From Lachnospiraceae bacterium (lineage in GTDB: Bacteria > Bacillota > Clostridia > Lachnospirales > Lachnospiraceae), in the NCBI GenBank assembly GCA_017962225.1, contig JAGCVT010000088.1, positions 1 to 44,324 of the forward strand: a stretch of DNA of 44,324 nt, written 5' to 3'. Positions 14,841-31,761 of this stretch are shown piece by piece. Position 1 is the first letter of the stretch, and every line of letters starts with the position of its first letter. Both the position numbers and the translations under genes were made by a program. The notes beneath the pieces are model-generated. The model worked only from the letters and a program-made list of their open reading frames with translations. It was not told the origin of the DNA and did no database searches.

Positions 14841-14868
14841 ATGCATACCTCCTCTTTCATTTATCCAT

Positions 14869-15765
14869 TTAAAGTTCATAAAGAACCGATTCGTCTATTT
14901 CGGAAACCTTTGAAAAGCCTGTCGCGCTCATCACAAAGCGAAGTTCCTTGCAAACGCTTTCGATATATTCCTTTACGCCGGATACTCCGTCTTTTTCAAG
15001 GAAAGGAATCATGGACCTGCCGACTGCTGCCGCATCAGCACCTAAAGCAAGGGCTTTAAACACATCAGAACCGCTCGTAATGCCGCAGTCTACTATTATG
15101 GCGATGTCCTTTCCCTTAAGTTCTTCTTTTATGTCCTGAAGCACCATCATGGGCGGTACGGCATAAGGAAGTCTTCCGTGATGATGACTTACGATAATTC
15201 CCTTTGCCCCAATCTGTGCACATTTGATTGCATCTGCAACGCTTAATACTCCTTTTACGATAAAAGGTATCTTAACCGATTCAACATACGAACGAAGCAT
15301 GTCGGATGTCTGAGCAGCCATCTCTTCGCCCATAACGATATCGTAACCCGTGGTACCGAAGATATGGTCGATATCCATTCCGACACCGAATGCGCCATTG
15401 CTTTCGGCGTACTGAAGCTGGTCTCTTACTTTGCCGTTATCCGCATAGGGTTTTACGATTCTTACGGTCTTTGCTCCTGTATCAATAATCTTCTGGAACA
15501 AATCGTTTTCCATCATTCCGCAGAAATTAAGTATATTGCATTCTTTTGCAGCAATTGAATATTCTTCGAGCCCTGTCAGTTCCCTTCCGTTAAACGCGCC
15601 TAAATGCGAAAATGCAGGCGTCATAACGGGCATCGAAAACTTCTCGCCGAAAATCGTAGTACTTATATCTGCATTTACGGAATCAATCAGCCTCTGTTCA
15701 AAGAGGATTGAATCCATGTATCTTTCGTTTATTTCATTTGCATCAGACAGTCTTGTATAAGCCAT
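14869..15765 (-). CDS. FMN-dependent alpha-hydroxy-acid oxidoreductase family protein
   Basis: A 298-residue TIM-barrel flavoprotein related to lactate and glycolate oxidases and type 2 isopentenyl isomerase. Seen: start region with FSMPVMTPAFSHLG, a substrate/FMN lysine in PFIVKGVLSVADA, and the C-terminal IIVDCGITSGSDVFKALALGADAAAVGR, an FMN-phosphate site. Where classic members have SNHGGRQ, with the catalytic His and substrate Arg, this protein has VSHHHGRLPYAVPP. It is also shorter than the usual 350-380 residues. It therefore probably acts on a different substrate; I recall similar motifs in uncharacterised Firmicutes homologues. Start ATG 15765 has AAAGGAGGAG and overlaps the end of the isomerase gene by 23 bases. 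Role in sugar catabolism is inferred from neighbours. Confidence 0.75.
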   Translation of the reverse strand: MAYTRLSDANEINERYMDSILFEQRLIDSVNADISTTIFGEKFSMPVMTPAFSHLGAFNGRELTGLEEYSIAAKECNILNFCGMMENDLFQKIIDTGAKTVRIVKPYADNGKVRDQLQYAESNGAFGVGMDIDHIFGTTGYDIVMGEEMAAQTSDMLRSYVESVKIPFIVKGVLSVADAIKCAQIGAKGIIVSHHHGRLPYAVPPMMVLQDIKEELKGKDIAIIVDCGITSGSDVFKALALGADAAAVGRSMIPFLEKDGVSGVKEYIESVCKELRFVMSATGFSKVSEIDESVLYEL

Positions 15766-16576
15766 GTAACTCCTCCTTTAAATACCCCATATATTTGTAA
15801 TACTCTTCGTCCGAATTAAGATGCTCCAAAATCATAGGCATATCCGGATTGATTTCATTCATTTTCGATACATAATAGCGGATAGGGTATTCGCCCTCGC
15901 TCGGAGCGCATTCCTCTACCTGAAATGTGTACTTCGGTATAAAATGAATGTCTTTTATGTGGCAGCTTCGAATTTTATCTCCTAAAAGAGTAGCACACTC
16001 ATCAATAAATTCTTCAGGCCTGAAATACCTGTCAGCCGAATTGGTCATATTGATGATATCCATGTGAACCGCAAATCTGTCACGCTCTACTTCATCAATG
16101 AGTTTAAGATATTCCTTCGGTCCCGTGGGAAACATCCAGGGCATCGGTTCAAGCGTAAAATAAGTATTCTTTACATCAGCTCTGTCAATTATTTCCTGAA
16201 CCATTTTTACGACCTGTTTCCATGCATCCTTCGTAAGGTTTTCCTTATAACCGCCGTCCCATACGGGGCCTAATGCGCCTGCCACATTTACCACACATCT
16301 TGCATTTAAGAAGTCCGCAAGACGTAACTGATTAATGCAGTAATCAATATTGCGCTTTCTCTCATCGGGATCTAAGGACATTGCATTTCTCCAGATTCCG
16401 ACTTCCGCAATCATAAGGCCATACTTTTTGGCTGCGTTTTTGTATTCGATTATTTTTTCCTCAGGGTCGTTACAGGACAGCGGAAAAACAACTGCGCTGC
16501 AGCCTAAAGCTGCCTGATTCCTTGCCCATTCATCCGCATTACTGTGCGCCAGCGGTGAAGAAGTTCCAAGTCTCAT
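15743..16576 (-). CDS. Sugar phosphate isomerase/epimerase family (xylose isomerase-like TIM barrel)
   Basis: A 277-residue TIM-barrel protein of the AP-endonuclease-2/xylose isomerase-like group. Seen: metal-ligand positions in YFTLEPMPW (Glu), FAVHMDIINM (His, Asp), CHIKDIHFI (His, Asp) and MPMILEHLNS (Glu), which match the usual metal site in strands 4 to 8. Members isomerise or epimerise sugars or act as inosose dehydratases. Start ATG 16576 has AAAGAGGGGGG upstream. It lies 25 bases after the last radical SAM gene and overlaps the FMN oxidoreductase start, so the three sugar genes (isomerase, oxidoreductase, xylosidase) are probably translated together. The exact substrate is unknown. 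Confidence 0.75.
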   Translation of the reverse strand: MRLGTSSPLAHSNADEWARNQAALGCSAVVFPLSCNDPEEKIIEYKNAAKKYGLMIAEVGIWRNAMSLDPDERKRNIDYCINQLRLADFLNARCVVNVAGALGPVWDGGYKENLTKDAWKQVVKMVQEIIDRADVKNTYFTLEPMPWMFPTGPKEYLKLIDEVERDRFAVHMDIINMTNSADRYFRPEEFIDECATLLGDKIRSCHIKDIHFIPKYTFQVEECAPSEGEYPIRYYVSKMNEINPDMPMILEHLNSDEEYYKYMGYLKEELHGLYKTV

Positions 16577-16601: not shown

Positions 16602-17921
16602 CTAAACTATGTTAGGTACTATTCCGTGCTTAATATGATATCTGTAAAAAAGATTTACTCCCAGGTAAAATACCGCATTGTAAGGCCTCTTTATCAGACA
16701 GTCACTGAAGATGGTTCTCTTTAAAATACATTTGATTGAATATACATCGTTATAAAGATCCCAGTACGCTTTCGTCAGTTCCTCGGGTGTCATGTTTTTG
16801 GGAACATGAACCGCTTCGCAGGCGTTGTAGGAATACATGTCCGTATTGTATATTCTGTCCTGATCCTTCATCTCGTCGTAATACTGAGTGCCGGGAATCG
16901 GTGTTAAAATATAAAATCTCGGTACGGCTATTTTGTTATCCTCTATAAACTTTTTGGTAGCCTTAATTGATTCAAGCGTATCCCCTTCCGCTCCGACTAC
17001 CATCTCCGTGGATATGTCTATACCGTGCTTACGGATTATTTTAAGCTGTTTTGAATATTCGTCCGGATGAGCCCAGGCTTTCTGCATACCTACAAGGCTC
17101 TCACGGCTTATACTTTCAAGGCCGAAGCTTAACGCGTAACAACCGCTCTTTGCAACTGCGGTTAAAAGCTCATCGTCCTTTGCAATATCTATCGAGCACT
17201 GAGTCATCCAGTGCATTTTCATTTTCTTTATTTCTTTGCAGAGCTCAAGCGCATAATTTCTGTCGGAGAAAAGATTGTCGTCCAATAAAAGAAACTGCTT
17301 AAAGCCCAGTTCTTTTATGCGCTTAATATCTCTCATTACGTCAGGTATGCTTCGCTTTAAATATTGTCCGCGGTACAGACAATAAATTGAACAGAAACTG
17401 CAGGTTTTGGGACACCCTCTTCCGGCCTGAACCGGCAAGAAATTGCCTATCTTTTTGTTTAATACAAGCTCGTATTTGGGAAGCGGTGTTTCAAGCTTGG
17501 TCAGTTTCTTTTTGTAATAATCTTTTAGGGTGCCGTTTAAATAATCATTGATCATTTCACCCCAGGTTTCCTCGGCATCACCTATCATAACGGCATCGCC
17601 GTATTTCTTTGCCTCCTCGGGCATTAATGAAACCATGTATCCGCCTAGAATTACTGTCTTACCGAGTTCCTTAAACTTCTTAGCAATATCTATGGTACGC
17701 ATTACCGCGTGACCCATACTGCTTATACCGATTAGCTCGGCATCGGTATCAAACGGTACATCTTCTATCGTTTCGTAGCAAAGCTCCACCTCAAAATCAT
17801 CGGGCGTTAAGGCTGCAAGCAAAGGAAGCGCAAGGCCTACAAAATATAATTTTTTCTTTTTTACCAGGTTTCCGTACTGATCGTAGGGAGTGGGCTGGAT
17901 AAGTAAAAGTTTCTTTTTCAT
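16602..17921 (-). CDS. B12-binding-type radical SAM protein (divergent member of the cluster)
   Basis: A 439-residue protein with an N-terminal cobalamin-binding-like Rossmann domain (about residues 1-135, GISSMGHAVMRTIDIAKK and VILGGYMVSL) and a radical SAM core. The 4Fe-4S motif is CPKTCSFC (Cys170, Cys174, Cys177); LLLDDNLFSDRNYA and SFGLESIS follow in the barrel. No DxHxxG motif is seen, so cobalamin, if bound, would not use the classical His ligand. Such enzymes do radical methylations, ring closures and other C-C chemistry. It is the least similar of five consecutive radical SAM proteins. Its ATG overlaps the upstream TGA as ATGA, so it is coupled to the previous gene. It is last of the set, 25 bases before the isomerase. 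Substrate unknown. Confidence 0.85.
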   Translation of the reverse strand: MKKKLLLIQPTPYDQYGNLVKKKKLYFVGLALPLLAALTPDDFEVELCYETIEDVPFDTDAELIGISSMGHAVMRTIDIAKKFKELGKTVILGGYMVSLMPEEAKKYGDAVMIGDAEETWGEMINDYLNGTLKDYYKKKLTKLETPLPKYELVLNKKIGNFLPVQAGRGCPKTCSFCSIYCLYRGQYLKRSIPDVMRDIKRIKELGFKQFLLLDDNLFSDRNYALELCKEIKKMKMHWMTQCSIDIAKDDELLTAVAKSGCYALSFGLESISRESLVGMQKAWAHPDEYSKQLKIIRKHGIDISTEMVVGAEGDTLESIKATKKFIEDNKIAVPRFYILTPIPGTQYYDEMKDQDRIYNTDMYSYNACEAVHVPKNMTPEELTKAYWDLYNDVYSIKCILKRTIFSDCLIKRPYNAVFYLGVNLFYRYHIKHGIVPNIV

Positions 17922-19276
17922 AAAACAATCAGTCTTTTAACTTTCATAAAGAGCACGCGGATAATATGAAGCATGCCTTTGAAATATTCGTTATCCGCAT
18001 ATAGCGGTGATTTTCTGTTTTTAAAAGCAAGTCCCATTGAAAGCTTGTAATATTCAAACGTAAAACGTCTTACGCTCATATGCTCGGGCTTTAATAGACA
18101 GTGGAACAAATCCTGCTTGGTCACGTCTTTTGTAATCAGCTTATCTTCGTACTCCTTGTACATCGCGGAGCCCTGCATCGGCGTAAATACCGATACTGTC
18201 GGAATAATATCCCTTGAAGCAATCCATTTGTAAAGCTTCTTGAAATCCTCTTTCGTCATAGCCTGATGCACGATAAATAATCCTGCACAGAAAATATGAT
18301 TCTCGGATAAAATTCTGATGCACTCTTCGTTCTCATGCAAAGACACATGCTTGTTGTATGAATCGAGTTCTTCGTCGTTGGTGGCTTCAAGTCCTACCAT
18401 TACAAGTGCGAGTCCGATTTCGGCCAGTTCTTTTATGATGTCTTCGTTATTTGCGATAAAATCAGCACGGCCGTAAATTAAATACTTCTTATGGATGTCT
18501 TTTTCTTTTACGAGCCTTATGAATTCCTTTAAATACTCTCTGTTTACAAGGAAATTGTCGTCCGTAATATGAACCGCGGGAACATCCAAGGACGCGATTT
18601 CATCTACGAGCTTGTCGACACTCCTGCATGCATATCTTCCACCGTTACGGTTGGTGCAGAAACAGAAATTACAGTTTCTCTGGCAGCTGTATGAATTCTT
18701 TACAAGCGCCAGCGGTTTAAAGCAGAGGTATCTGAAACGGAATTTGTTTTTGTAAAAATGTGTTCTGTCGGGAACGGGCAAATCTTCGGGAGTTTCAAAA
18801 ATCTTTGGATTCGAAACCCACTCACCGTTTTTCTTATAGCAGATACCGGGTATTTCTTCGATATCCGCATTATCCTTTTTCTCTATGTCTTTTACAAGCC
18901 TGCACATGTTATCGAGGCCCGAAAGAAGATAAAGGTAATCCGCTTTGGAATCATAAAAGTTCTCGTAGTTGATTTCCACATGCGAACCGCCCAAAATTAC
19001 CGCCGTCTCGGGTCTGTGCTTTTTTATTACTTCACAGAGTTTTTTTATGCGCTTCTCCTGCGTGATATAACCCGTGATGCACACAACGTCAGGCTTTTCC
19101 TTATTCAGTTTCTTTCTTAAGGATATCGCTTCGTACCTTCTGTCGTAGATAACCGCATCATGACCGTCTTTCGTAAAAACCGTATAAAGGTATTCCATCT
19201 CCAAGGGTTCGTGATCGACAAGGTAAGTAAAACTGAATATCCCGACCGTTTCCGGCTTGATAAGGAGTATTTTCAT
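17918..19276 (-). CDS. B12-binding-type radical SAM protein, paralogue 4 of the set
   Basis: A 452-residue protein with a cobalamin-binding-like N-terminus (HEPLEMEYLYTVFTKDGHDA, VVCITGYI, AVILGGSHVEINYE) and a radical SAM core. The cluster motif is CQRNCNFC (Cys198, Cys202, Cys205), followed at once by FC. Other landmarks shared with its three upstream paralogues are ITDDNFLVNREY, IYGRADFIANNE, VMVGLEATNDEELDSYNKH and FTPMQGS, where related proteins have a (F/L)TP(L/M)(K/R)G-like loop. The C-terminal 80 residues are basic and hydrophobic (PEHMSVRRFTFEYYKLSMG) and may touch a membrane or carrier-bound substrate. Its ATG overlaps the preceding stop by four bases (ATGA). The reaction is unknown. 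Confidence 0.86.
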   Translation of the reverse strand: MKILLIKPETVGIFSFTYLVDHEPLEMEYLYTVFTKDGHDAVIYDRRYEAISLRKKLNKEKPDVVCITGYITQEKRIKKLCEVIKKHRPETAVILGGSHVEINYENFYDSKADYLYLLSGLDNMCRLVKDIEKKDNADIEEIPGICYKKNGEWVSNPKIFETPEDLPVPDRTHFYKNKFRFRYLCFKPLALVKNSYSCQRNCNFCFCTNRNGGRYACRSVDKLVDEIASLDVPAVHITDDNFLVNREYLKEFIRLVKEKDIHKKYLIYGRADFIANNEDIIKELAEIGLALVMVGLEATNDEELDSYNKHVSLHENEECIRILSENHIFCAGLFIVHQAMTKEDFKKLYKWIASRDIIPTVSVFTPMQGSAMYKEYEDKLITKDVTKQDLFHCLLKPEHMSVRRFTFEYYKLSMGLAFKNRKSPLYADNEYFKGMLHIIRVLFMKVKRLIVL

Positions 19277-20586
19277 TTGTTTTTATATTTCTTGTTAAAC
19301 ATATGCGTTACACCGGCCCAGTAAATGCGCGGATAATTTACATAATAAAGAAAATGAAACTCTAATTTAAACAAAAGCATCGGCATGTTCGAGGGCTTCA
19401 TCAGAACGCTTGTACCGCCCGTTCTTCTGTATTTGTAATGATAGAGTCGGTCTTTGTTTTCCTCGTATACTGGGGTTCCCTTGAAAGGAATAAGTATACT
19501 GAACAAAACCCAGATAAGCTTTTCTTTTTTGATGAACTTATTGATGTTCATAAAATCCCTGTGCTTGAAATCATAGTTGATAACGAAAAGCCCGACGCAG
19601 ACCATCTCGTAATCGCGCAGGATTTTAACCGCGCGCATATTAAGTTCGACACTCGAATTTTTGTTGTATTTTTCAAGCGTGGTATCTTCAACCGCTTCAA
19701 GACCGACTAACATATCACGGAAACCCGCTTTGTAGATAATCGGGAAAATATCTTCACACCTGCAGATACTGTCAGCTCTCGCAAAGATCATAAAAGTCTT
19801 CTTTAAATCAAGTTCTATAAGCTTCTCGCAGATTTCAAGAACACGGTCTCTGTTTACAAGGAAATCGTCGTCTATAATAAAGATTTTGTCATTGTCGATT
19901 GAAATGATTTCATTGATTACGTCTTCCACGGTTCTTTCCCTGTAAGTGCAGCTGTTAAACTGCCTTGAAATACAGAATTTACAGTTCTGAGGACAGGAAA
20001 ACGCGGTTTTCATCATTGAAAAACAGCCCTTTGCAAGCACGCGGAATTTGGATCTGTTCTCATAAAAGAAACTCCTGTCGGGAAGTAAACCGTAATCGCT
20101 TATCGGCTCGCCCTTTTTGTTTAAAAACCACTCTCCGTTTATCTTTCCCGCAAAGCCCGAGCAGGTCTTTAAGACTTCATCGTCAAATTCGTTTCTTAAT
20201 GCGAGTCTGAACGAATCAAGACCGTTGTCAAAAGAAACATAATCCACATCGTCTATCATAAAATCTTCAAAGTTTACGACGACTTCGGGACCGCCGACCA
20301 TAATCTTTACATTAGGTCTGGCTTTCTTTAATTTGTGTATAAGCTTAAGCACATACCATGCGGTATTTGACATTATAGAAAAGCCGACAATCGTAATGCC
20401 GTTATCGTCTACTTTTTTTAAGAGTCTTGCGAATCGTCCGAATGAGCTTTCAATGCTTTCATCATGAATAAGCCCGAACTTTCCTTCAGCCTTAACCGCA
20501 GCCATAAGATACTCAAGTCCAAGCGGTTCGAGGCTTGCAACTCTTTTATCGTAATGTACTCTGACAAACATATATTTCTGAGTCAT
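19273..20586 (-). CDS. B12-binding-type radical SAM protein, paralogue 3 of the set
   Basis: A 437-residue protein of the same design as its neighbours: N-terminal cobalamin-binding-like domain with SLEPLGLEYLMAAVKAEGKF and IMVGGPEVVVNFED, then radical SAM motif CPQNCKFC (Cys198, Cys202, Cys205). The motifs IIDDDFLVNRDR, MIFARADSI and MLVGLEAVEDTTLEKYNKN are conserved with the paralogues. I chose ATG 20586, not 20595: AAAAGG lies about 9 bases upstream of it, while it abuts the earlier ATG directly, and the stop of the preceding gene then overlaps as TAATG. The C-terminus (FHFLYYVNYPRIYWAGVTHM) closely parallels that of the next paralogue upstream. This suggests recent duplication with functional splitting. 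Substrate unknown. Confidence 0.86.
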   Translation of the reverse strand: MTQKYMFVRVHYDKRVASLEPLGLEYLMAAVKAEGKFGLIHDESIESSFGRFARLLKKVDDNGITIVGFSIMSNTAWYVLKLIHKLKKARPNVKIMVGGPEVVVNFEDFMIDDVDYVSFDNGLDSFRLALRNEFDDEVLKTCSGFAGKINGEWFLNKKGEPISDYGLLPDRSFFYENRSKFRVLAKGCFSMMKTAFSCPQNCKFCISRQFNSCTYRERTVEDVINEIISIDNDKIFIIDDDFLVNRDRVLEICEKLIELDLKKTFMIFARADSICRCEDIFPIIYKAGFRDMLVGLEAVEDTTLEKYNKNSSVELNMRAVKILRDYEMVCVGLFVINYDFKHRDFMNINKFIKKEKLIWVLFSILIPFKGTPVYEENKDRLYHYKYRRTGGTSVLMKPSNMPMLLFKLEFHFLYYVNYPRIYWAGVTHMFNKKYKNK

Positions 20587-21911
20587 TAAAACCATCCTTT
20601 TCTCTTCGTGTCGTACGAAGTACCGAACAGGGTTCGAACCATAATTTTAGGATATGTCAAAACATGTATCCAGTAGTACCTGAGCATATATTCAAAAGAC
20701 GACATGTTGGTGGGTTTAAGCGTAATATGCGTACCGTCCAGTCTCCAGGATTTAAAGTTAATTACCTTATCCTGATACTCCGCATACGCATCGGTGCCCT
20801 TGTAAGGCGTAAATATACCGAATACAACCCATAAAAGATTGTTATCCTTGATAAACTTTAAAAGCTTTCTGTAATCGTCTCTTGTGGCCGTATAATTGAT
20901 TACAAAGAGGCCGTTGCAGACAATGCCCGCATCATGAAGATTCTTAATTGCCATTTCGTTATCGTTCTTCGAAGTCTGCTTGTTGTATTCATCAAGCGTT
21001 TCGTCGCTTATCGCTTCAAGACCGACTAAAATATCCCTGAAGCCTGCCTCATAGGCAAGGGGTAATATATCGGGATTTGCGGCTAAAAAATCGGCTCTGG
21101 CATATGCCATAAAATTCTTCTTGATACCGCGCTTTATTATTTCGTTACAGAAAGTTTTTACTCTGTCTCTGTGGAAGAAAAACGTATCGTCCACAAACCA
21201 GATTTTATCGTGTTTGATTTCCTCGATTTCATCGATTACTTCCATGATGTCACGCTCTGTGTAAACACCGCTGTTCATCTTCGTGCAGTAACAGAAAGAA
21301 CATGCGAAAGGACAGGAAAAAGATGCTTTTGAAAGTGCATATTTTCCCTTCATGAAAATATAATTTTTCTTAAGTCCCCTGTAAAAAGCCGTTCTGTCGG
21401 GTTTGGTGATAAAGCCGCATACAGGCTCGCCTTTTTCTTTTATGATCCACTCACCGTCTTTTTTAAACGCAATACCGGTTAATTCATCCAGAGCTTCGGG
21501 CGTAAAATCGCTCTCCCACATTTTCTTTAATGTCGAAAGACCGTTGTCGTAGTAAACATAGTCCACATCGTCGACGCAGAATTCCTTATAATTCATCTCC
21601 GCTTCGGGACCGCCGACCTGGATTGTAATGTCGGGGAATTTTTTCTTAAGCTGCTTCGCCCTTTTGTTAATGTAATCAACGGTATTGGCATTGGCATTTA
21701 AACCTATGTAATTGTAATTACCTTTTTTGATGACACGGCACATTCTTGAAAAGCGGAAAGTCCACGGATGATCGAATTCATCATGAATTTCACACTTTAT
21801 TCCCATATCCTTTGCCAGACCTGCAATATATTCAAGGCCCAAAGGCTCCAGATGGGCTACAAGCGATGTGTATTTGGGACGTATCAGCAAAACCCTTAAT
21901 TCTTTTTGCAT
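20586..21911 (-). CDS. B12-binding-type radical SAM protein, paralogue 2 of the set
   Basis: A 441-residue protein with the cobalamin-binding-like N-terminus (HLEPLGLEYIAGLAKDMGIK, IQVGGPEAEMNYKE) and radical SAM motif CPFACSFC (Cys200, Cys204, Cys207), followed by YC. Shared landmarks are WFVDDTFFFHRDR, MAYARADFLAANP, ILVGLEAISDETLDEYNKQ and IFTPYKGTDAY. It pairs most closely with the 19273-20586 protein, including a YYDNGL/SFDNGL segment and near-identical C-terminal logic (THITLKPTNMSSFEY against TSVLMKPSNMPMLLF). The ATG at 21911 has GAGGG upstream and overlaps the preceding gene by 16 bases. Four such enzymes in a row suggests successive reactions on one substrate or different positions on a long chain; this is inference. 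Confidence 0.87.
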   Translation of the reverse strand: MQKELRVLLIRPKYTSLVAHLEPLGLEYIAGLAKDMGIKCEIHDEFDHPWTFRFSRMCRVIKKGNYNYIGLNANANTVDYINKRAKQLKKKFPDITIQVGGPEAEMNYKEFCVDDVDYVYYDNGLSTLKKMWESDFTPEALDELTGIAFKKDGEWIIKEKGEPVCGFITKPDRTAFYRGLKKNYIFMKGKYALSKASFSCPFACSFCYCTKMNSGVYTERDIMEVIDEIEEIKHDKIWFVDDTFFFHRDRVKTFCNEIIKRGIKKNFMAYARADFLAANPDILPLAYEAGFRDILVGLEAISDETLDEYNKQTSKNDNEMAIKNLHDAGIVCNGLFVINYTATRDDYRKLLKFIKDNNLLWVVFGIFTPYKGTDAYAEYQDKVINFKSWRLDGTHITLKPTNMSSFEYMLRYYWIHVLTYPKIMVRTLFGTSYDTKRKGWF

Positions 21912-23332
21912 TTTTCACCCTCAATGAGTTTCTTCCAATACTGGTTGTTAACGGCTACTGCGCCGAAGCTTAATTTAAGCGTATCGTGAAGTCCGTATTT
22001 TTTTACCATATACCATCCGCTGACAGGATTGGCTGTGATTTTATAATATAAAACCATCGTGTACCAGTAATATTTTCTGACCGAAATATTGTCGGGACGA
22101 ACGACTAAATGAGCCAGATCCCACTTCTCGTATTCATCCTCTCTTACTATGAATCTGGGCTTATATTTCTCGTAAATATCCGTTCCGCGAAGAGGCGTTA
22201 AAGGCTGAAGATTAACGAATACAAGACCGAGCTTTTTAATCCATTTATGGAGCGCGTTAAAGTCTTCTTTGGTCCAATCGAGTCCTAATATAAACGTACC
22301 GTAGCATTCGACATCGTATTTCTTTAAAATACCTACTGCTTTTTCGTTTATCTCAACGTTGGTTCTCTTGTTGTAGTCGTCAAGCTGCATACTGTCGCAG
22401 GATTCAAGACCGACAATAACGGCTCTTAAACCGACTTCCTTGAAACGCTTTATAACGTCTTCATTTGCTGCAACGTAATCCGCACGGCCGTATATAAGGT
22501 ATTTCTTTTCGATGCCCTTCTGCTTAAGTAAATCGCAGAATTTAAGGATTCTATCCCTTCCTACAAGGAAATCGTCATCCACGATATAAATCTCTGTCTC
22601 GGGAATTGTTTCAAGTTCCGCTACAATGTCTTCGAGATCCCTTGCAAAATACTGGTCGTCCATTATCTGACGGCAGAAACAGAATTTGCAGTTATAGGGA
22701 CAGCCGAACGATGTTTTTATGAGCGTGCAGTTCCTGTGGAACATGTAATAATATTTCGATCGGTATTTGTTTACCTTGTCTCTGTCGGGATAAAGATAAT
22801 TAAAGGTCGTATCTTTTTTAGGAGGTTTTTTGCCCGGTACGTAGATACATTCTATCTCGTCTTCTTCACCGATTATTTCGGACGATTCTTTGCCGGCTTT
22901 TTTTATCTCACCGTTATTTTTCTCTTTGTCTTTTTCGAGTTTGTTTAAAATATCGATAAAGGTTCTTATACCGTTCGCGCGGATAATGTAATCAACGTAG
23001 GGCGATTCGAAATCTCCGGGATTAACCTCCGCATGAACACCGCCTATTATCGTTACTATATTTTCGTTTACTTCCTTGGCCTCTTTCGCATATCTTTTCA
23101 TAATGTTTACATGCGAAATATACCCTGTGATTCCTACCACATCAGGGTTATAAAGCTTTACAAAGTAAGGCACGTTCTTCTTTTCGATTATCATATCCAC
23201 GATCGTGCATGTATGTCCCAGCGCTTCAATATTCGCCGAAATATACTCGAGTTCCAGCGGCTCGCAGATCATTACGTTCTGAAGGCCTATGGTCTCTTTG
23301 TCAGGCCGCGGTCTGAATAAAAGTACGTTCAA
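21896..23332 (-). CDS. B12-binding-type radical SAM protein, paralogue 1 of the set
   Basis: A 478-residue protein, first of the radical SAM run. N-terminal cobalamin-binding-like domain: CEPLELEYISANIEALGH, VVGITGYISHVN, VTIIGGVHAEVNPG. The cluster motif is CPYNCKFC (Cys211, Cys215, Cys218), followed by FCRQ. Landmarks: IYIVDDDFLVGRDR, IYGRADYVAANE, VIVGLESCDSMQLDDYNKR, LQPLTPLRGTDIY. It carries an extra lysine- and glutamate-rich insertion at about 132-175 (KDKEKNNGEIKKAGKES) that the paralogues lack. The start is TTG 23332, with a perfect AAGGAG five bases upstream embedded in the last codons of the previous gene, so it is coupled to it. No DxHxxG motif is present. The reaction is unknown; BchE-type chemistry is the closest general parallel. 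Confidence 0.86.
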   Translation of the reverse strand: MNVLLFRPRPDKETIGLQNVMICEPLELEYISANIEALGHTCTIVDMIIEKKNVPYFVKLYNPDVVGITGYISHVNIMKRYAKEAKEVNENIVTIIGGVHAEVNPGDFESPYVDYIIRANGIRTFIDILNKLEKDKEKNNGEIKKAGKESSEIIGEEDEIECIYVPGKKPPKKDTTFNYLYPDRDKVNKYRSKYYYMFHRNCTLIKTSFGCPYNCKFCFCRQIMDDQYFARDLEDIVAELETIPETEIYIVDDDFLVGRDRILKFCDLLKQKGIEKKYLIYGRADYVAANEDVIKRFKEVGLRAVIVGLESCDSMQLDDYNKRTNVEINEKAVGILKKYDVECYGTFILGLDWTKEDFNALHKWIKKLGLVFVNLQPLTPLRGTDIYEKYKPRFIVREDEYEKWDLAHLVVRPDNISVRKYYWYTMVLYYKITANPVSGWYMVKKYGLHDTLKLSFGAVAVNNQYWKKLIEGEKCKKN

Positions 23333-23334
23333 TT

Positions 23335-24372
23335 TTACTCCTTAAATACATGGAATTCGGGAAAATCATATTTGTATTCAAGCATATGTTTTCCGACCAT
23401 GGCAAATATATTTAAAAAAGGATTTGAATGATGCGCATAAAAATATTTTTTCTTAAGGTTTGCTCCGAATTTAAGTTTGGTCTTTTCAGAGGTCTGACCA
23501 AAATCTATTACTCTGCATCCTTTTTCAAACGCATATTCAACTATCTTTAAAAGCATGTAAAAATACAAATCGGCGTTATCTTTCTCAGGCTCATAATCCA
23601 TACCGCAGAGCATGAATATAAGTTCATCGCCGTCTGCTTTTAAAAGTACAAATCCGACAGGTTTTTCACCTCGTAAAAAAATCAGTTTTTCGCCTTCGGT
23701 TTTATCAAAAAACTCTTTGTTTAAACATTCGAGTTTGTAATCGGATTTCTCATAAGTCTGTAAATACAGAGGATGTACATCAATTGAATCATCCGAGGTC
23801 CTTACAACTTCTATATCGCTGCAGTTTTTAAGAGCGATATTTATTCTTCTTCTGTACGGACTCCTTAATGAATCCATATATGTTTTTATGTCTTTTATGC
23901 CTTCCGGAATTTTAAATTCGCATGTCGGAAGCGTTTCTCCGAAGGACATTCCTTTTATGTCTGTTTTTTCATCCAGGTTTAGTACAAGCTTGCAGCCTTT
24001 AATGGTCTTAATGTATGTAAGCATCCAGGCAACGTTGTTTGTAATAAATCCGTTGTTTGAAAGCGAACAGGGGAAAGCCACGGTGTGAATATTCATAAAC
24101 CATTCGGCTTTTCCGTAGGTAAAAAGATTCATACGGTTCTCATAAACGACAAAAAAAGCGTAATTTGAATCATCTTCGATGTAGTAATACTTCTGCTCCA
24201 AAGGATTTGCGGTTTTTAAAAGAGTTAACATGTTAAGCGTAAAAGGAAAAGGCAGATCGTTTTCCGGATTAAATATAATCCCGGCAAAACGAGCATTCTT
24301 CATCTGCTCAAAAATCTCCGTGGGATCTTCGCTTATATATTTTTTAAAATTTTCATCATATCTCTTTTTCAT
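23335..24372 (-). CDS. FemAB/GNAT-like acyltransferase
   Basis: A 345-residue soluble protein with a C-terminal GNAT-like fold. Seen: SLRSPYRRRINIALKN at about residues 185-200, matching the basic loop of FemAB/BioF2-type acyltransferases, then LIFLRGEKPVGFVLLKADGDEL (motif A strand) and LKIVEYAFEKGCRVIDFGQTSEKTK, a typical FemAB-like end. These families transfer acyl or aminoacyl groups from CoA, tRNA or carrier proteins. ATG 24372 is used; it overlaps the preceding stop by 17 bases and has only a weak site upstream. The in-frame start at 24462 would overlap the previous gene by over 100 bases. Context beside an acyl carrier protein points to transfer of the carrier-bound acyl group. Donor and acceptor are not known. 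Confidence 0.7.
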   Translation of the reverse strand: MKKRYDENFKKYISEDPTEIFEQMKNARFAGIIFNPENDLPFPFTLNMLTLLKTANPLEQKYYYIEDDSNYAFFVVYENRMNLFTYGKAEWFMNIHTVAFPCSLSNNGFITNNVAWMLTYIKTIKGCKLVLNLDEKTDIKGMSFGETLPTCEFKIPEGIKDIKTYMDSLRSPYRRRINIALKNCSDIEVVRTSDDSIDVHPLYLQTYEKSDYKLECLNKEFFDKTEGEKLIFLRGEKPVGFVLLKADGDELIFMLCGMDYEPEKDNADLYFYMLLKIVEYAFEKGCRVIDFGQTSEKTKLKFGANLKKKYFYAHHSNPFLNIFAMVGKHMLEYKYDFPEFHVFKE

Positions 24373-25441
24373 AAACCACATATTCTTTGTAAAGCTCATC
24401 ACAGAAAGCTTTACAAAAACTGTTAGAGTCTTCGTTATCCGCCAGTATCCATGAGGATTCAACCCGGCTTACGCCGTAATTCGAAAGGATAGAATAAACA
24501 TGTGCAATCAGTGCAAAAGGAAGACCCACTCCCCTGTATTCATCGAGCACTCCGTATTCCATAACCTTGGCAGTTTTAATTTTTTTATTTGCAAAAATAT
24601 TCTTAAAATAATGCTTGGTTCCGAACGCTTCTCCGGGCTTTGCAAGCTCGTTATAATCGGGGTACCAGAGGATAAAGCCCGCAGGTTTGCCGTCCTTAAA
24701 AGCAAAAATCAAAGAATCTTCCTTCATGAAAAGAAAGAGTTCTTTTAACATTTCCTCATCGTCCTTATAATCACGCACATAATAATATTTGTGGTCGGTA
24801 AAGCATTTATTGTTTAAATCCGTATACATTTTCGAATATTCTTCGAAATGCTTTTTGTCGAATTTTTTGAATTCATATTCCCTGTTAAGCTTCTCGAGTA
24901 TCTTTTCATAGCGCATTAATCTTCCGTCGAGAGAATGCGTAAAATAAGAATTAAGCTTAACTTCCTCAAAGTCCATAGCGCGGAAATAATCGTTGTAAAA
25001 CGAAGGGTTTCCTGCCGACGAAAAAGAATTGACTTTGTCAAAATGCGAATCAAGAAATCCGAGGCCGTAATTCACATGACCGTAGAGACCTATTACAAGC
25101 CTTTTACAGCCTTTGCTTTTACCAATCTTAACCGCTTCGTCCACAAGCAGATTTACGGCTTCAGCCACGCCTTCAAGCGCTTCAAAAAAACAAAGCTGCA
25201 CATATTCGGGCAAATCGTTTGCTACCGCAATTATCCCCTCGCAGAGTATATTTCCTTCATCATCTTCAACCATCAAAGGTGTAATGCTTAAGCTCTTCGT
25301 AAAATGAAGCTTGTCCGAGAAAATCTCTTTTAGCATAAAATAACTGTTGTCGACATAAAGCTTCTTCCCGCCGTAGATTTTCTTACGGAAAGATAAGAAT
25401 TTATTCTGAAGTTTTTTACTTTCGGCTGTCTCAGTCTTCAT
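24356..25441 (-). CDS. GNAT-family acyltransferase-like protein
   Basis: A 361-residue protein with a long N-terminal region and a C-terminal acyl-CoA N-acyltransferase fold. Seen in the second half: EYSKMYTDLNNKCFTDHKYY, SLIFAFKDGKPAGFILWYPDYNE, and VMEYGVLDEYRGVGLPFALIAH, which has the RGxG-type acyl-donor loop of GNAT motif A. The first half (RKKIYGGKKLYVDN, LVIGLYGHVNYGLGFLD, NPSFYNDYFRAMDFEE) resembles the YghO-type group of poorly known acyltransferases. ATG 25441 has GGAG 6 bases upstream; a TTG at 25462 is less likely. The start overlaps the carrier-protein stop by 11 bases, so the two are likely coupled and may interact. Substrate not known. Confidence 0.72.
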   Translation of the reverse strand: MKTETAESKKLQNKFLSFRKKIYGGKKLYVDNSYFMLKEIFSDKLHFTKSLSITPLMVEDDEGNILCEGIIAVANDLPEYVQLCFFEALEGVAEAVNLLVDEAVKIGKSKGCKRLVIGLYGHVNYGLGFLDSHFDKVNSFSSAGNPSFYNDYFRAMDFEEVKLNSYFTHSLDGRLMRYEKILEKLNREYEFKKFDKKHFEEYSKMYTDLNNKCFTDHKYYYVRDYKDDEEMLKELFLFMKEDSLIFAFKDGKPAGFILWYPDYNELAKPGEAFGTKHYFKNIFANKKIKTAKVMEYGVLDEYRGVGLPFALIAHVYSILSNYGVSRVESSWILADNEDSNSFCKAFCDELYKEYVVYEKEI

Positions 25442-25664
25442 TGCGCGCTCCAAGCGTTTCAAGATAATCGCAGATATCTTTTATGGTTTCCGCCTTACGG
25501 TATTTATCTTCTTCCATTTCAACGCCGAGGATTTCTTCTGCAACGAATGCAAGCTCCATCAAATCAAAAGAATTAAGTCCAAGATCCTTTTTGAAATTCG
25601 ATTCGGGTGTTACATTATCAATACCGTATTTGTCTTTTAAAATCGTTACTATTTTTTCGTACAT
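25431..25664 (-). CDS. Stand-alone acyl carrier protein
   Basis: A 77-residue acidic protein of acyl/peptidyl carrier type. Seen: the phosphopantetheine site KDLGLNSFDLMELAFVAEE, with Ser32 as attachment residue, and the four-helix pattern with a late VEMEEDKYRKAETIKDICDYL. The site is LGLNSFDLM rather than the LGADSLDTVE of housekeeping AcpP, so it is more likely a dedicated carrier. It lies between an AMP-forming ligase (stop 15 bases upstream) and a GNAT protein whose start overlaps its stop. The simple reading is that the ligase loads it and the downstream enzymes act on its thioester. A phosphopantetheinyl transferase is not visible in the window and would be supplied elsewhere. Confidence 0.9.
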   Translation of the reverse strand: MYEKIVTILKDKYGIDNVTPESNFKKDLGLNSFDLMELAFVAEEILGVEMEEDKYRKAETIKDICDYLETLGARNED

Positions 25665-25679
25665 TTAAATATCTCTCAT

Positions 25680-27293
25680 TTATTCATTTTCTGCATATTT
25701 GCTTCTTATAATTTTTTTCGAGCTGTTTTTCTCAAGCTCGTCTTTGCTGACCTCATAATCGGTTATCTGCATGTATGAAGGCAAATCAGCGTTAACGGAA
25801 GCAATATCGTCTTTTAGGAATTCTTCCTTATCCTCATCGTGAAGAACAATTATCGCATGAAGTATGTTGCTTCTCTCGGACACTTTCCTTGATACCACGA
25901 TGCTTTCCTTTACGTAAGGAATCGAATTGATTTTGCTCTCCAAGAGTTCGGGCGGTACGTTTTTGCCGTTCTCAAGGATGATAAGGTTTTTCTTTCTGCC
26001 TGTGACGAATATAACCTTTCCGTCCGTTCGACCTATATCCCCCGTAGCAAGATATCCATCTCTCATAATGGCTTTGGTGGCTTCTTCGTTCTTGTAATAT
26101 CCGAGCATTACGCAGGGACCTTTTACGAGGATTTCACCGTCTTCCGCTATTTTGACGTCAATATTTTTCATAATGGTTCCGGCGCTTCCGACCACATTGT
26201 TGCCCGTTCTTGAAACCGCTATTGTAGGCGAGCATTCCGTTAAGCCGTAACCGTTTAAAATCGTAATTCCGATCTCATCGAATTTATTCACGTAATCAGC
26301 ATTAAGTGCCGCTCCTCCGTTAACCACTAGGCGAAGGTTTTTGCAGATAAGCTTTCCGAAAAATACATGTCTTAAATCAATTCCGAATTTTCTGAAAAAC
26401 TTACAAATCCTGATTGCCCTGTTAAAAGTCTTTTCCTTGTTCTGCTTTTTGACTTCCCTTATGATTCCGTCATACATTCCTTCGATTACCATCGGTACGG
26501 CACCGAAGAAGAACGGATTAAAGGTTCTTAAATCGCGAAGCAGATATTTTGTTTTAAGGTTTAAACACAAGGTCGTGCCGTTATATATCGTAGCTAAAAT
26601 ACAGGGGTTGAATCCGTATGTGTGATTCATGGGTAAGAATGCAAATGTCGGATTTTTTAAAACATTGTTTTCAAGCGTACCGCGGATGTTCGTGATGACA
26701 TTGTACTGGCTTAACATTACGCCCTTCATCTGACCGTCCGTGCCTGATGTGGATGCCAGAACGGCAAATCTGTCTTTGTCGGTATCTTTTACGTATTCGA
26801 AAAAGTCCTGTATGCACTTTTTTTCATCAGCCGATTCGTTCTTAAATACTGTCTTTAAAGCCTCGTCATCAATGTTATAAACTTTCAGATTATCAGGCTT
26901 TGAAAACTCATCGCTTTCGATTTTCTTACTTGTTTCATCGGTTACAAAGAGAAAATCGACATCAAAATTCTTTACGCAGTCCGAAAGATTTTTTGAAGTC
27001 ATCTCCTTATCGAGAGGTACGATAACATTCTTCATAACCGCTGCCATATATATGGTTATATATTCATAACGGTTTTCCGAGAAAATTCCGATATGCTTTC
27101 CCTCAATCCCCTGCTCTTTGAAAAACAGTCCGATAAGGGAAGTTTCTTTTATCATCTCTGCATACGATATATCAATTATCTGCTCTTTATCCATGAAACG
27201 AATGGCTGTCGTTTTGGCCTTTGTTTCATATCTTCCTTTAAGCATTTCATAGAAGTTATCGTATATAACCGTATCAAGATACGGATAATCCAT
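25680..27293 (-). CDS. AMP-forming acyl-CoA/acyl-ACP ligase
   Basis: A 537-residue ANL-superfamily enzyme with long-chain acyl synthetase features. Seen: phosphate-loop STSGTDGQMKGVMLS, where the usual TGxPKG is altered to DGQMKG with the Lys kept; HTYGFNPCILATIYNGTT; the NGYGLTECSP motif; GYLATGDIG; VTGRKKNLIILENGKNV; and a C-terminal NSSKKIIRSKY with the catalytic Lys region. It would adenylate a carboxylic acid, and the adjacent carrier protein is the likely acceptor. ATG 27293 follows AAAGGCAGGATATAAAA; this spacing and the MDYPYLD start echo the junctions of the TIR genes upstream. It lies 34 bases after the last TIR gene and begins the biosynthetic block. Chain length of the substrate is unknown. 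Confidence 0.85.
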   Translation of the reverse strand: MDYPYLDTVIYDNFYEMLKGRYETKAKTTAIRFMDKEQIIDISYAEMIKETSLIGLFFKEQGIEGKHIGIFSENRYEYITIYMAAVMKNVIVPLDKEMTSKNLSDCVKNFDVDFLFVTDETSKKIESDEFSKPDNLKVYNIDDEALKTVFKNESADEKKCIQDFFEYVKDTDKDRFAVLASTSGTDGQMKGVMLSQYNVITNIRGTLENNVLKNPTFAFLPMNHTYGFNPCILATIYNGTTLCLNLKTKYLLRDLRTFNPFFFGAVPMVIEGMYDGIIREVKKQNKEKTFNRAIRICKFFRKFGIDLRHVFFGKLICKNLRLVVNGGAALNADYVNKFDEIGITILNGYGLTECSPTIAVSRTGNNVVGSAGTIMKNIDVKIAEDGEILVKGPCVMLGYYKNEEATKAIMRDGYLATGDIGRTDGKVIFVTGRKKNLIILENGKNVPPELLESKINSIPYVKESIVVSRKVSERSNILHAIIVLHDEDKEEFLKDDIASVNADLPSYMQITDYEVSKDELEKNSSKKIIRSKYAENE

Positions 27294-27327: not shown

Positions 27328-29529
27328 CTAATACACGAGATTCGAAGTAATAACCAAAGCCAAAGCCATTATGTTTGACGCCAGTATTGCAAAATATGAA
27401 AACTTGTGTAAATCGAGACTGTATTTATCATTTAACAGATCTATAACCGCCATCAGAGTGCCCACGACAGGAACTGGTGACAGTAATAATGCTGCTATAC
27501 TTAATGCGGAATCTCTTTTCGGGAACCTTTCATATGTTTCCTGAGGCGGGAACATAACTTCGACATATTTCATATAACGGCCTTTGGCTGATTCATATAT
27601 GTCATTAAGTTTTTCCAGTTCCGGGTTATAATTTTCTTCTTTGATTTCTACAAGAGTACTTATGTTATTTTCTTCTTTGTACTGCTCTAAAAGTATTTCG
27701 GCTTTCTTGTACATTTCAGCGCCTGCATCACTGCTTAACGCATTATGCAGTTCTTCAAGATCGTTTCTCATCGAAATACTTGCCTGCGTCATCTGATCCC
27801 TGTATTTATTTACCATTTTTTTCGTCGGGGTAAATACGGCATTTTTGTTAAAAATATAAACCACGGGCGGTAACGCAATTGCCAAAACATACAAAGCACC
27901 GCCAAAGTGCGTGATTGCAGGAATCATCATAAATATGGCAATTATTGAAGTTGTAACAATATCCAGAACAAGGTTATATGAAAGCAATATGCCAGTTCCT
28001 GCTAAAATAAACGGAACCGAAACAAGAATTCTGAATGTAAGGAAACGCTTCGGTTCTTCTGTTCTTAAAAATGTATATGTATACTGCAGTTCGCTTATTG
28101 CAAGATCTGCTATTGCAAAAACATAGGCTCCCACAATAATAAGCATATATCCGATTGCGGCCGTCCATCTGCTCCTTTTGAAGAAATAATTAAATACTTC
28201 CTCACTTCCTATAAGATTATCAATAATCTCATTCTTCTTTCCGGCGGACTCGCTTTCTTCAAAATTTTCAACATAATCAACCGCTTTTTCACGAAGCAGT
28301 TTATTATAATCTCTCTGAGTAATTAATCTGTTAAGGCAGATTTCGGCTGTTTTCTTATATTCTTCTTTCAAATCCCCTTCGGCCAGGCTGACTGCCATGT
28401 TATAATCGGGATCCTGAGTAATATCCAGCAGCATTTCGGTTATATTTGAGGGTTTTGCATTATTGTTATAAAGCATTCTTAACCAGTAACCTTTGGCATA
28501 ATTCGGAAAATGGTCTATAAGGTTGTTTATGGCATTTAAGGTTTCGAATTTATCCCCCGAATTAAGATAAGAAACTGCCTTGTCGTACAGTTTATCCCTG
28601 TCATAAACATATGAACTTCCGCGTTTTTCTGTCAGAAATCTTTCTACGTTATTCGCAAGATTGTTCAAAGCATTTTTGTCACCGAGAAGCTGTGCCTGTT
28701 TTGTTGCAAAAGCTCTGGGAAGTTCTTCGGGATCGTCACATGCAAAAAACAATTGTTTATTCTCATCATTCTGCATGAGCTTTAAAAATCTGCCCCATTC
28801 GTTCTTAACCCATACGGACATAAAGTACTCGGGTTTTGTGCCGAGAACAACCATTGCCTTTGAACTCTTTAAAGCCGCAAAGATATAGGGTTCGTAATCT
28901 ATGCTTAACTTTGTTTTAAGCGTTTCTTTTGCAAAGAAAACCTTAAATCCCCTGTTTGATAAATCTTTATAAAGCTGCTCGGCGAGCGCAACGTCTTCGG
29001 TCTGCTCACCCGTTTCCTCGTCGGTTTCCTTGTAACAGATAAAAACATCATAAGGTGCTTCGTTTTCCGCTATATGAAGATATTCATTCTGCACTTTATA
29101 GATATATTCTGCTTCTTCCTTAAGCAGGTTTTTCTGTTCTTCGTCAGCCAGAGAAAGCGCATCGGTATACAGTTGATACGATAAAATACTCTCGTCATTT
29201 ATTCTGTGAAGTGTGGGAATATATTTGTCGGATACGGGATCGGGAACATATTCTATGCCGTATTCGCAGAGCGTACGAAGCCAGAGAATATCCGACGAGG
29301 GACCGTTCTCCGCTAAAATAACATCGTATATTCTTGCAGCATTGTCGAATTCACGCTCCTGTCTTAATTTATTTGCACGATTTAACTGATTGGTATATTT
29401 GGATGCAGCAATAGAAATAAAGTTGGTTGCGCCACAGTAATCACACACGCAAAGACTCGATTTAACTTTTAAAACACCGCCGCAGCACCTGCAGTTCAGC
29501 TCCTCGTTTTCAAAATACGAATAATCCAT
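27328..29529 (-). CDS. Zinc-ribbon, TIR-domain membrane protein (copy C)
   Basis: A 733-residue protein. Order of parts: zinc ribbon (Cys13-x2-Cys16 and Cys29-x2-Cys32 in CRCCGG and CDYCG), helical TPR-like stretch to about 155, TIR domain at about 158-300 (YDVFICYKETD, GFKVFFAKETL, MVVLGTKPEYFMSVWVKNEW), a helical region, membrane helices at about 455-475, 497-518, 520-538, 542-561, then a coiled segment and two more near 675-697 and 709-731. The Glu in WVKNEW (Glu244) matches the NADase catalytic Glu of active TIR domains (SARM1 WVHKEI), so NAD cleavage is possible. Seen in many Clostridia as unassigned TIR proteins. Third in transcription order, 34 bases before the ligase. Role in phage defence or signalling is unproven. 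Confidence 0.85.
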   Translation of the reverse strand: MDYSYFENEELNCRCCGGVLKVKSSLCVCDYCGATNFISIAASKYTNQLNRANKLRQEREFDNAARIYDVILAENGPSSDILWLRTLCEYGIEYVPDPVSDKYIPTLHRINDESILSYQLYTDALSLADEEQKNLLKEEAEYIYKVQNEYLHIAENEAPYDVFICYKETDEETGEQTEDVALAEQLYKDLSNRGFKVFFAKETLKTKLSIDYEPYIFAALKSSKAMVVLGTKPEYFMSVWVKNEWGRFLKLMQNDENKQLFFACDDPEELPRAFATKQAQLLGDKNALNNLANNVERFLTEKRGSSYVYDRDKLYDKAVSYLNSGDKFETLNAINNLIDHFPNYAKGYWLRMLYNNNAKPSNITEMLLDITQDPDYNMAVSLAEGDLKEEYKKTAEICLNRLITQRDYNKLLREKAVDYVENFEESESAGKKNEIIDNLIGSEEVFNYFFKRSRWTAAIGYMLIIVGAYVFAIADLAISELQYTYTFLRTEEPKRFLTFRILVSVPFILAGTGILLSYNLVLDIVTTSIIAIFMMIPAITHFGGALYVLAIALPPVVYIFNKNAVFTPTKKMVNKYRDQMTQASISMRNDLEELHNALSSDAGAEMYKKAEILLEQYKEENNISTLVEIKEENYNPELEKLNDIYESAKGRYMKYVEVMFPPQETYERFPKRDSALSIAALLLSPVPVVGTLMAVIDLLNDKYSLDLHKFSYFAILASNIMALALVITSNLVY

Positions 29530-29556
29530 TTTCCCCTGCCTTTTTTTCAGGCTTTA

Positions 29557-31734: not shown

Positions 31735-31761
31735 TTTTATGCCCTGCCTTCGTTAATAATC

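Follow-up and report, generated by a model that had tools for sequence, protein, structure and literature searches.

A conserved cassette combining a YghO-type N-acyltransferase homolog with five B12-binding radical SAM proteins in Lachnospiraceae: a possible route to an N-acylated amine

Bacterial ceramide genes (aasR, acpR, spt, epi, and aca, equivalent to yghO) provide a point of comparison for a cassette of nine genes that we analyzed in contig JAGCVT010000088.1 from a Lachnospiraceae bacterium. PMC9386255 describes how, in Caulobacter, AasR loads palmitate onto a dedicated acyl carrier protein (ACP), AcpR, and names yghO and CC_1154 as encoding the acyl-CoA N-acyltransferase that acts in making dihydroceramide, presumptively so for Escherichia coli. 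In PMC11087976, bCerS is described as a cytoplasmic, peripheral membrane protein. In E. coli BL21, genes for the ligase, an epimerase, the ACP, serine palmitoyltransferase (SPT), and yghO lie side by side. We take bCerS to be the product of CC_1154 and aca to be the bCerS gene. The cassette resembles these genes in the kinds of protein it encodes side by side, namely a putative acyl-ACP ligase, an ACP, and a YghO-type N-acyltransferase homolog, but it includes no SPT or epimerase/reductase gene and adds a FemAB-like transferase and five radical S-adenosylmethionine (SAM) enzymes. Moreover, its ligase and ACP are only distantly like AasR and AcpR, with similarity at the superfamily level. The radical SAM enzymes of the cassette share a B12-binding domain and the CX3CX2C motif with HpnR- and BchE-like enzymes, which are the best matches of four of them (rS1 to rS4), but they differ in that the best score is 154 of 650 bits, in that five distinct paralogs are present in one operon, and in that the fifth (rS5) is nearer to PhpK. 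We tentatively propose that the cassette encodes a specialized anaerobic pathway to an N-acylated amine (lipid amide), in which the ligase and ACP would feed the N-acyltransferase homolog.

The window, i.e., the whole stretch of DNA that was analyzed, is an entire contig (G000:C3) of 44,324 bases from a genome of 2.27 Mb that is 85% complete. Nine consecutive minus-strand genes run from position 27293 down to 16602 and encode an acyl-AMP ligase (LIG), an ACP, a two-domain GNAT, a FemAB-like transferase, and the B12-binding radical SAM proteins rS1 to rS5, as coordinates, Pfam matches, and motifs all confirm. A first-pass annotation had proposed this gene set and had described the junctions from the ACP to the last radical SAM gene as overlapping or nearly touching, and this description holds. 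LIG and ACP are separated by a 15 bp gap, the likely ATG of GNAT (25441) lies 11 bp inside ACP, and the likely ATG of FemAB (24372) lies 17 bp inside GNAT; rS1 begins with TTG 2 bp past FemAB and is preceded by AAGGAG, while rS2, rS3, rS4, and rS5 overlap the preceding gene by 16, 10, 4, and 4 bp, respectively. The GNAT and FemAB open reading frames (ORFs) as listed open at upstream TTG codons, and the starts common to relatives are 7 and 30 codons downstream, respectively. Ratios of nonsynonymous to synonymous substitution (dN/dS; NG86) were low for all nine genes when compared to loci L026, L024, and L028 (0.013-0.230, calculated with the TTG extensions in the GNAT and FemAB frames and with a 136-codon piece of the L028 ligase); comparisons with L032 were saturated and were left out.

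Scattered genes in related genomes would have contradicted the first-pass annotation; instead, the set is kept together in ten other loci from Lachnospiraceae and Oscillospiraceae, in the same visible order. A GNAT scan of genome contigs, which detects close relatives only, returned nine loci. Among 299 genomes of the family, eight had a GNAT match, our own included, and among the seven others the cassette was present only in G112. Of the 11 loci now known, six (the window, L024, L025, L026, L027, and L032) have all nine genes complete and in the same order, and L028 has all nine with its ligase cut by the contig end. The G112 locus (L018) has eight genes and is without rS4, while contig ends truncate L029, L030, and L031, where all visible genes keep the same order; the rS4 frame of L030 is short (410 aa) and lies near a contig end. 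L025 is from a strain assembly (Lachnospiraceae bacterium G41) rather than a metagenome-assembled genome, although the name G41 does not appear in the text of the Hungate1000 paper (PMC6118326). The record of L032 is titled Ruminococcus, and the names of several carriers mark them as rumen bacteria. Flanking genes vary and include those for a histidine kinase and ABC transporter, HAD and tRNA-editing proteins, GGDEF, PfkB, and GH97. The upstream TIR genes, like those that lie beyond rS5, accompany only part of the cassettes, so the unit spans the ligase to rS5. Distribution is patchy, as indicated by G120, from the same genus as the window, which had no rS5 match at 1e-60 and a GNAT match of only 24%.

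The Pfam match of the GNAT is to Acetyltransf_1 (2.4e-8), and neither it nor FemAB received an NCBIfam family name. A GNAT profile aligned with YghO of E. coli K-12 over 353 columns (probability 98.9), and among 74 ORFs from two BL21 stretches it retrieved YghO (2.8e-26, 84.5 bits), with the next ORF at E 1.6. In an hhalign comparison with 64 proteins, YghO reached a probability of 99.0 across 357 columns and the runner-up only 4.1, and the N- and C-terminal halves each aligned with YghO by themselves (93.6 and 97.7). When YghO was reversed or shuffled (three shuffles), scores fell to 0.1-0.4, whereas the 12 closer GNAT rows alone and the 7 distant rows alone scored 98.2 and 98.1. The GNAT is thus a full-length, two-domain homolog of YghO. 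Among solved structures, it had only weak matches to GNAT domains (best E 0.036). An N-acetyltransferase encoded on a Citrobacter portucalensis plasmid (L125) was not matched by the GNAT profile, which argues that the match with YghO is not a generic GNAT signal. This homology suggests that the ligase and ACP supply acyl groups for an N-acyl transfer and do not carry the substrate of every radical SAM enzyme.

LIG matches Pfam AMP-binding (6.6e-51), the NCBIfam model that it fits best (long-chain-fatty-acid CoA ligase) scored 196 of 476 bits, and the motifs TSGTDGQMKG, NGYGLTE, and TGD are all present. The ACP matches Pfam PP-binding (7e-10) and has the serine in NSFD; a profile of its relatives scored AcpR of BL21 at 28.6 bits. 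The genome also has a match to a phosphopantetheinyl transferase and has CobS, both of which we count in favor of the proposed pathway.

More distant loci reveal that the cassette is modular. We sought rS5 in 398 genomes of the phylum, including our own, with up to four candidates scored per genome, and recovered it in our own and in seven others (59-66% identity), with all other listed matches at or below 38%; in 397 genomes of the family, only our own and G112 (81%) exceeded 35%. Near the seven distant rS5 genes are homologs of the window's GNAT (29-36%), FemAB (32-36%), and rS1 (44-55%) and an rS4-type gene. These five genes form a core shared by the seven phylum genomes and Acetoanaerobium noterae, i.e., eight loci (L064-L070 and L124), two of which (L069 and L070) are from one genus and nearly the same and so reduce the number of independent cases. 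Gene order differs in L068, and the rS4 assignment in L064 is by best hit only, with the tree leaving it open. In A. noterae DSL2 (recorded as a cell culture, on a sequence labeled as a 2.63-Mb plasmid), the order is GNAT-FemAB-rS4-methyltransferase-rS1-rS5-rSx, where rSx denotes an extra radical SAM gene.

Neither rS2 nor rS3 was found in the eight core loci or seen outside the form of the cassette with LIG and ACP; LIG, ACP, rS2, and rS3 occur together. No ACP was found by profile in the examined stretches of the core loci, although the same profile did detect the ACPs of L018, L031, L032, and BL21; the L064 stretch ends just beyond rS5, and more could lie past it. An AMP ligase was present only in L069 and L070, at 23-24% identity to LIG. 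A class I methyltransferase was identified in all eight (by Pfam in four and by similarity in the rest), rSx in six, and both a FeeM-like acyltransferase (N-acyl amino acid synthase) and a phosphatidylserine decarboxylase homolog in three. FeeM-like genes are absent from the window's cassette. As acylating and amine-freeing kinds of enzymes, the FeeM-like acyltransferase and the decarboxylase homolog of the three distant cassettes are counted in favor of an N-acyl amine product. The GNAT profile, which was built with rows from the seven positive genomes, scored above 400 bits in those and our own genome, and another 29 genomes gave scores of 58-146 bits; profile searches scored five candidates in most genomes and the rS5 searches four, such that misses are possible in both.

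Each of the five radical SAM proteins exceeded the curated Pfam cut-offs for Radical_SAM and B12-binding, the latter marginally in rS2 (32.2 against 32.1 bits), and each has an intact CX3CX2C motif. The nearest NCBIfam families were HpnR for rS1, rS3, and rS4, BchE for rS2, and PhpK for rS5, all far under their cut-offs; the best match to HpnR reached 153.8 of 650 bits and so does not place these proteins in that family. The best matches of rS1 to rS4 (E 2e-33 to 6e-45) nonetheless extend across most of the HpnR or BchE profile. Lipid-pathway families of B12-binding radical SAM enzymes, namely HpnR and the ladderane-associated TIGR04072, were thus among the relatives, far below cut-offs. Solved structures were compared for two of the five proteins: rS1 matched an apramycin biosynthetic oxidoreductase, which we take to be AprD4, as well as TokK and CysS, while rS5 also matched that oxidoreductase and, in addition, an unnamed radical SAM protein, TM_1862, and RimO. 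Because these matches mix methylases and nonmethylases, they do not allow the type of reaction to be called. When 86 radical SAM proteins were placed in a tree, cassette orthologs clustered by gene position and not by genome, although some deep joins are unsure, which indicates that the five are distinct paralogs.

FemAB exceeded the Pfam cut-off for Acetyltransf_6 (2.5e-5), which we take to be a FemAB-like family; comparison with solved structures returned nothing useful (best E 0.66). Its profile matched our own and the same seven core genomes among the 398 and none of the 390 others at 1e-8. Since the profile contains rows from the seven by construction, only the latter count is new information; the seven neighbors themselves were identified from the window protein alone.

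Taken with the gene content, these observations are consistent with a scheme in which LIG would adenylate a fatty acid and load it onto the dedicated ACP, from which the YghO-type GNAT would move the acyl chain to a free amine. The core proteins rS1, rS5, and usually rS4 may make or decorate the amine scaffold through methylation or through C-C/C-H remodeling, and the FemAB-like enzyme may add a second acyl or aminoacyl group. For rS2 and rS3, which were seen only with LIG and ACP, the acyl chain attached to the carrier is a possible substrate. Persistence of GNAT, FemAB, rS1, and rS5 in the eight loci where no ACP was found suggests that the core chemistry does not need a dedicated carrier. 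This bears on the first-pass annotation, which had envisaged a linear route of activation, loading, alteration on the carrier, and transfer: such an order fits the variant with LIG and ACP, where rS2 and rS3 track these two genes, but not the core loci. A bolder version of our proposal is that some rumen Lachnospiraceae and scattered other Clostridia make anaerobic N-acyl lipids of a class not yet described, in which B12-binding radical SAM enzymes build an amine backbone in place of SPT and a relative of ceramide synthase adds the fatty acid; this we consider unlikely at present.

Several observations weigh against a pathway to an N-acylated amine. LIG is 21% identical to AasR of BL21 (E 1.6e-15, a superfamily-level match only), and AasR is also matched by the window's other ligase (505-2181; 8e-12) and by the L069 ligase (2e-26), while ACP and AcpR align by blastp at 37% over just 27 residues. 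E. coli YghO is itself a presumptive N-acyltransferase in PMC9386255. Lone Clostridial proteins in L113, L114, and L115, without a cassette, are nearer to YghO (29-31%) than is the cassette GNAT (22%), and close GNAT relatives occur without a cassette in G039 (58-60% identical to the window GNAT, well within its contig) and G772 (324 bits, 1.9 kb into a 21-kb contig and surrounded by unmatched genes), the latter two genes counting against an obligate link. The family, therefore, need not signify ceramide-like chemistry. Finally, no Rfam family, the cobalamin riboswitch included, reached its gathering score in six sources.

An unlikely alternative is that LIG and ACP hold the substrate, an acyl chain that each of the five radical SAM enzymes would modify while it is bound to the carrier and that GNAT and FemAB would then transfer. 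The tight junctions from ACP to rS5 and the extended matches of rS1 to rS4 to HpnR, named as a hopanoid C-3 methylase and a hydrocarbon-lipid enzyme, or to BchE accord with such a route, as does the restriction of rS2 and rS3 to the form with LIG and ACP; it is for these two that the route is most plausible. Against it, rS1, rS5, and an rS4-type gene persist where no ACP was found, although a general ACP could still serve. A tRNA-dependent, lipopeptide-like product, with FemAB adding amino acids from aminoacyl-tRNA, the radical SAM enzymes methylating or crosslinking, and GNAT capping with a fatty acid, strikes us as quite improbable: the match to Acetyltransf_6, a FemAB-like family, and the occurrence of this FemAB type only with the core among the 398 genomes point toward it, but Acetyltransf_6 is broad, use of aminoacyl-tRNA is not readable from sequence, and the structure comparison gave nothing below E 0.66. 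HpnR and TIGR04072 among the relatives, together with the naming of several carriers as rumen bacteria, would suit membrane-spanning or branched lipids of the diabolic-acid type, whose hydrocarbon tails would be coupled or methylated by the radical SAM enzymes; yet all of these family matches are far below cut-off and nothing links five such enzymes and FemAB to tail coupling, making this very unlikely. Least probable, and no more than a remote possibility, is a variant of the ceramide pathway. While LIG, ACP, and GNAT are the same kinds of genes as AasR, AcpR, and YghO, the SPT of BL21 had no match at 1e-15 in our genome (85% complete, a single query), and we set the variant aside on this basis. 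Two of nine genomes searched had a 33-35% match to SPT, on contigs other than that of the cassette. The absence of SPT from our genome rests on one query, and the broad aminotransferase family PF00155 is represented there by 12 matches. Kinds of genes suited to acyl supply and N-acylation are thus present, but SPT, the known enzyme for forming the backbone, was not found.

The first-pass annotation did not recognize the set as a described pathway, and likewise we found no description of it in openly licensed PMC literature; the term 'radical SAM' is absent from PMC8241843. The annotation saw no RiPP (ribosomally synthesized and post-translationally modified peptide) precursor or nonribosomal peptide synthetase (NRPS) module. 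In a scan of 38 proteins from the window, which did not take in small precursor-peptide ORFs, no NRPS, polyketide synthase, or RiPP model exceeded its Pfam cut-off; PKS_DH_N scored 17.1 of 27 bits, below cut-off, on 104-547. The C. portucalensis plasmid (NZ_CP134684.1, typed IncFIB,IncFII) has a block at about 52126-63512 that encodes five radical SAM proteins, a GH3-type enzyme, the N-acetyltransferase noted above, a PAP2 phosphatase, and a fatty acid desaturase. The similarity of its radical SAM genes to rS5 is just 30-34%, and its N-acetyltransferase matches neither the GNAT (E 1.3) nor the FemAB (0.54) profile, suggesting a parallel lipid-type block and not the same cassette.

The cassette is conserved and modular, has named carriers in Lachnospiraceae bacterium G41 and A. 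noterae DSL2, and represents a dense set of uncharacterized cobalamin-dependent radical SAM enzymes, which allows one to ask how several paralogs divide their chemistry. YghO-like N-acylation from a dedicated ACP would offer a specific, testable handle for finding the product.

Table 1. Positions of the cassette genes in the window.
Feature	Position	Strand	Evidence and remarks
Acyl-AMP ligase (LIG), possibly acyl-ACP synthetase	25680..27293	-	537 aa; Pfam AMP-binding, motifs, AasR match
Acyl carrier protein (ACP)	25431..25664	-	77 aa; serine in GLNSFD; Pfam PP-binding
Two-domain GNAT, YghO-type N-acyltransferase homolog	24356..25441	-	Pfam Acetyltransf_1, full-length YghO match; listed ORF 24356-25462 from TTG
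FemAB-like / Acetyltransf_6 transferase	23335..24372	-	Pfam Acetyltransf_6; listed ORF 23335-24462 from TTG
rS1, B12-binding radical SAM protein, core	21896..23332	-	Pfam, NCBIfam, tree, motif
rS2, B12-binding radical SAM protein, seen only in LIG/ACP form	20586..21911	-	Pfam, NCBIfam, tree, motif
rS3, B12-binding radical SAM protein, seen only in LIG/ACP form	19273..20595	-	Pfam, NCBIfam, tree, motif
rS4, B12-binding radical SAM protein, core type, absent in L018	17918..19276	-	Pfam, NCBIfam, tree, motif
rS5, B12-binding radical SAM protein, core, most conserved	16602..17921	-	Pfam, NCBIfam, tree, motif, dN/dS

In the window, the genes next in line after rS5 (12849-16576, minus strand) encode a xylose-isomerase-like barrel, an FMN dehydrogenase, and a GH120 protein; all three occur in L026, the first two in L027, and none in L024, L025, L028, or L032. 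Between an ArsR-type regulator and the cassette (27328-33912, minus strand) are three tandem TIR-domain proteins of ~720 aa with Cys-rich N-termini, of which L024, L026, and L027 have two copies each and L025 has four. These genes were considered as members of the unit and rejected, as they are missing beside other cassettes. At the contig end (104-2181, plus strand), a FabA-like dehydratase gene is overlapped by that of the second AMP ligase.

Among the distant cassettes, a serpin gene is near two (L065, 17073-18296; L068, 10300-11559). The rS5 gene of G407 (L051 / L070, 7823-9082) has one in-frame TGA, and that of G493, from the same genus, is without it. Two genomes from the same family as the window have runs of radical SAM genes that are 31-33% like rS5: five followed by a GNAT in G184 (L072, 7465-15265) and three in G101 (L073, 6980-12164).

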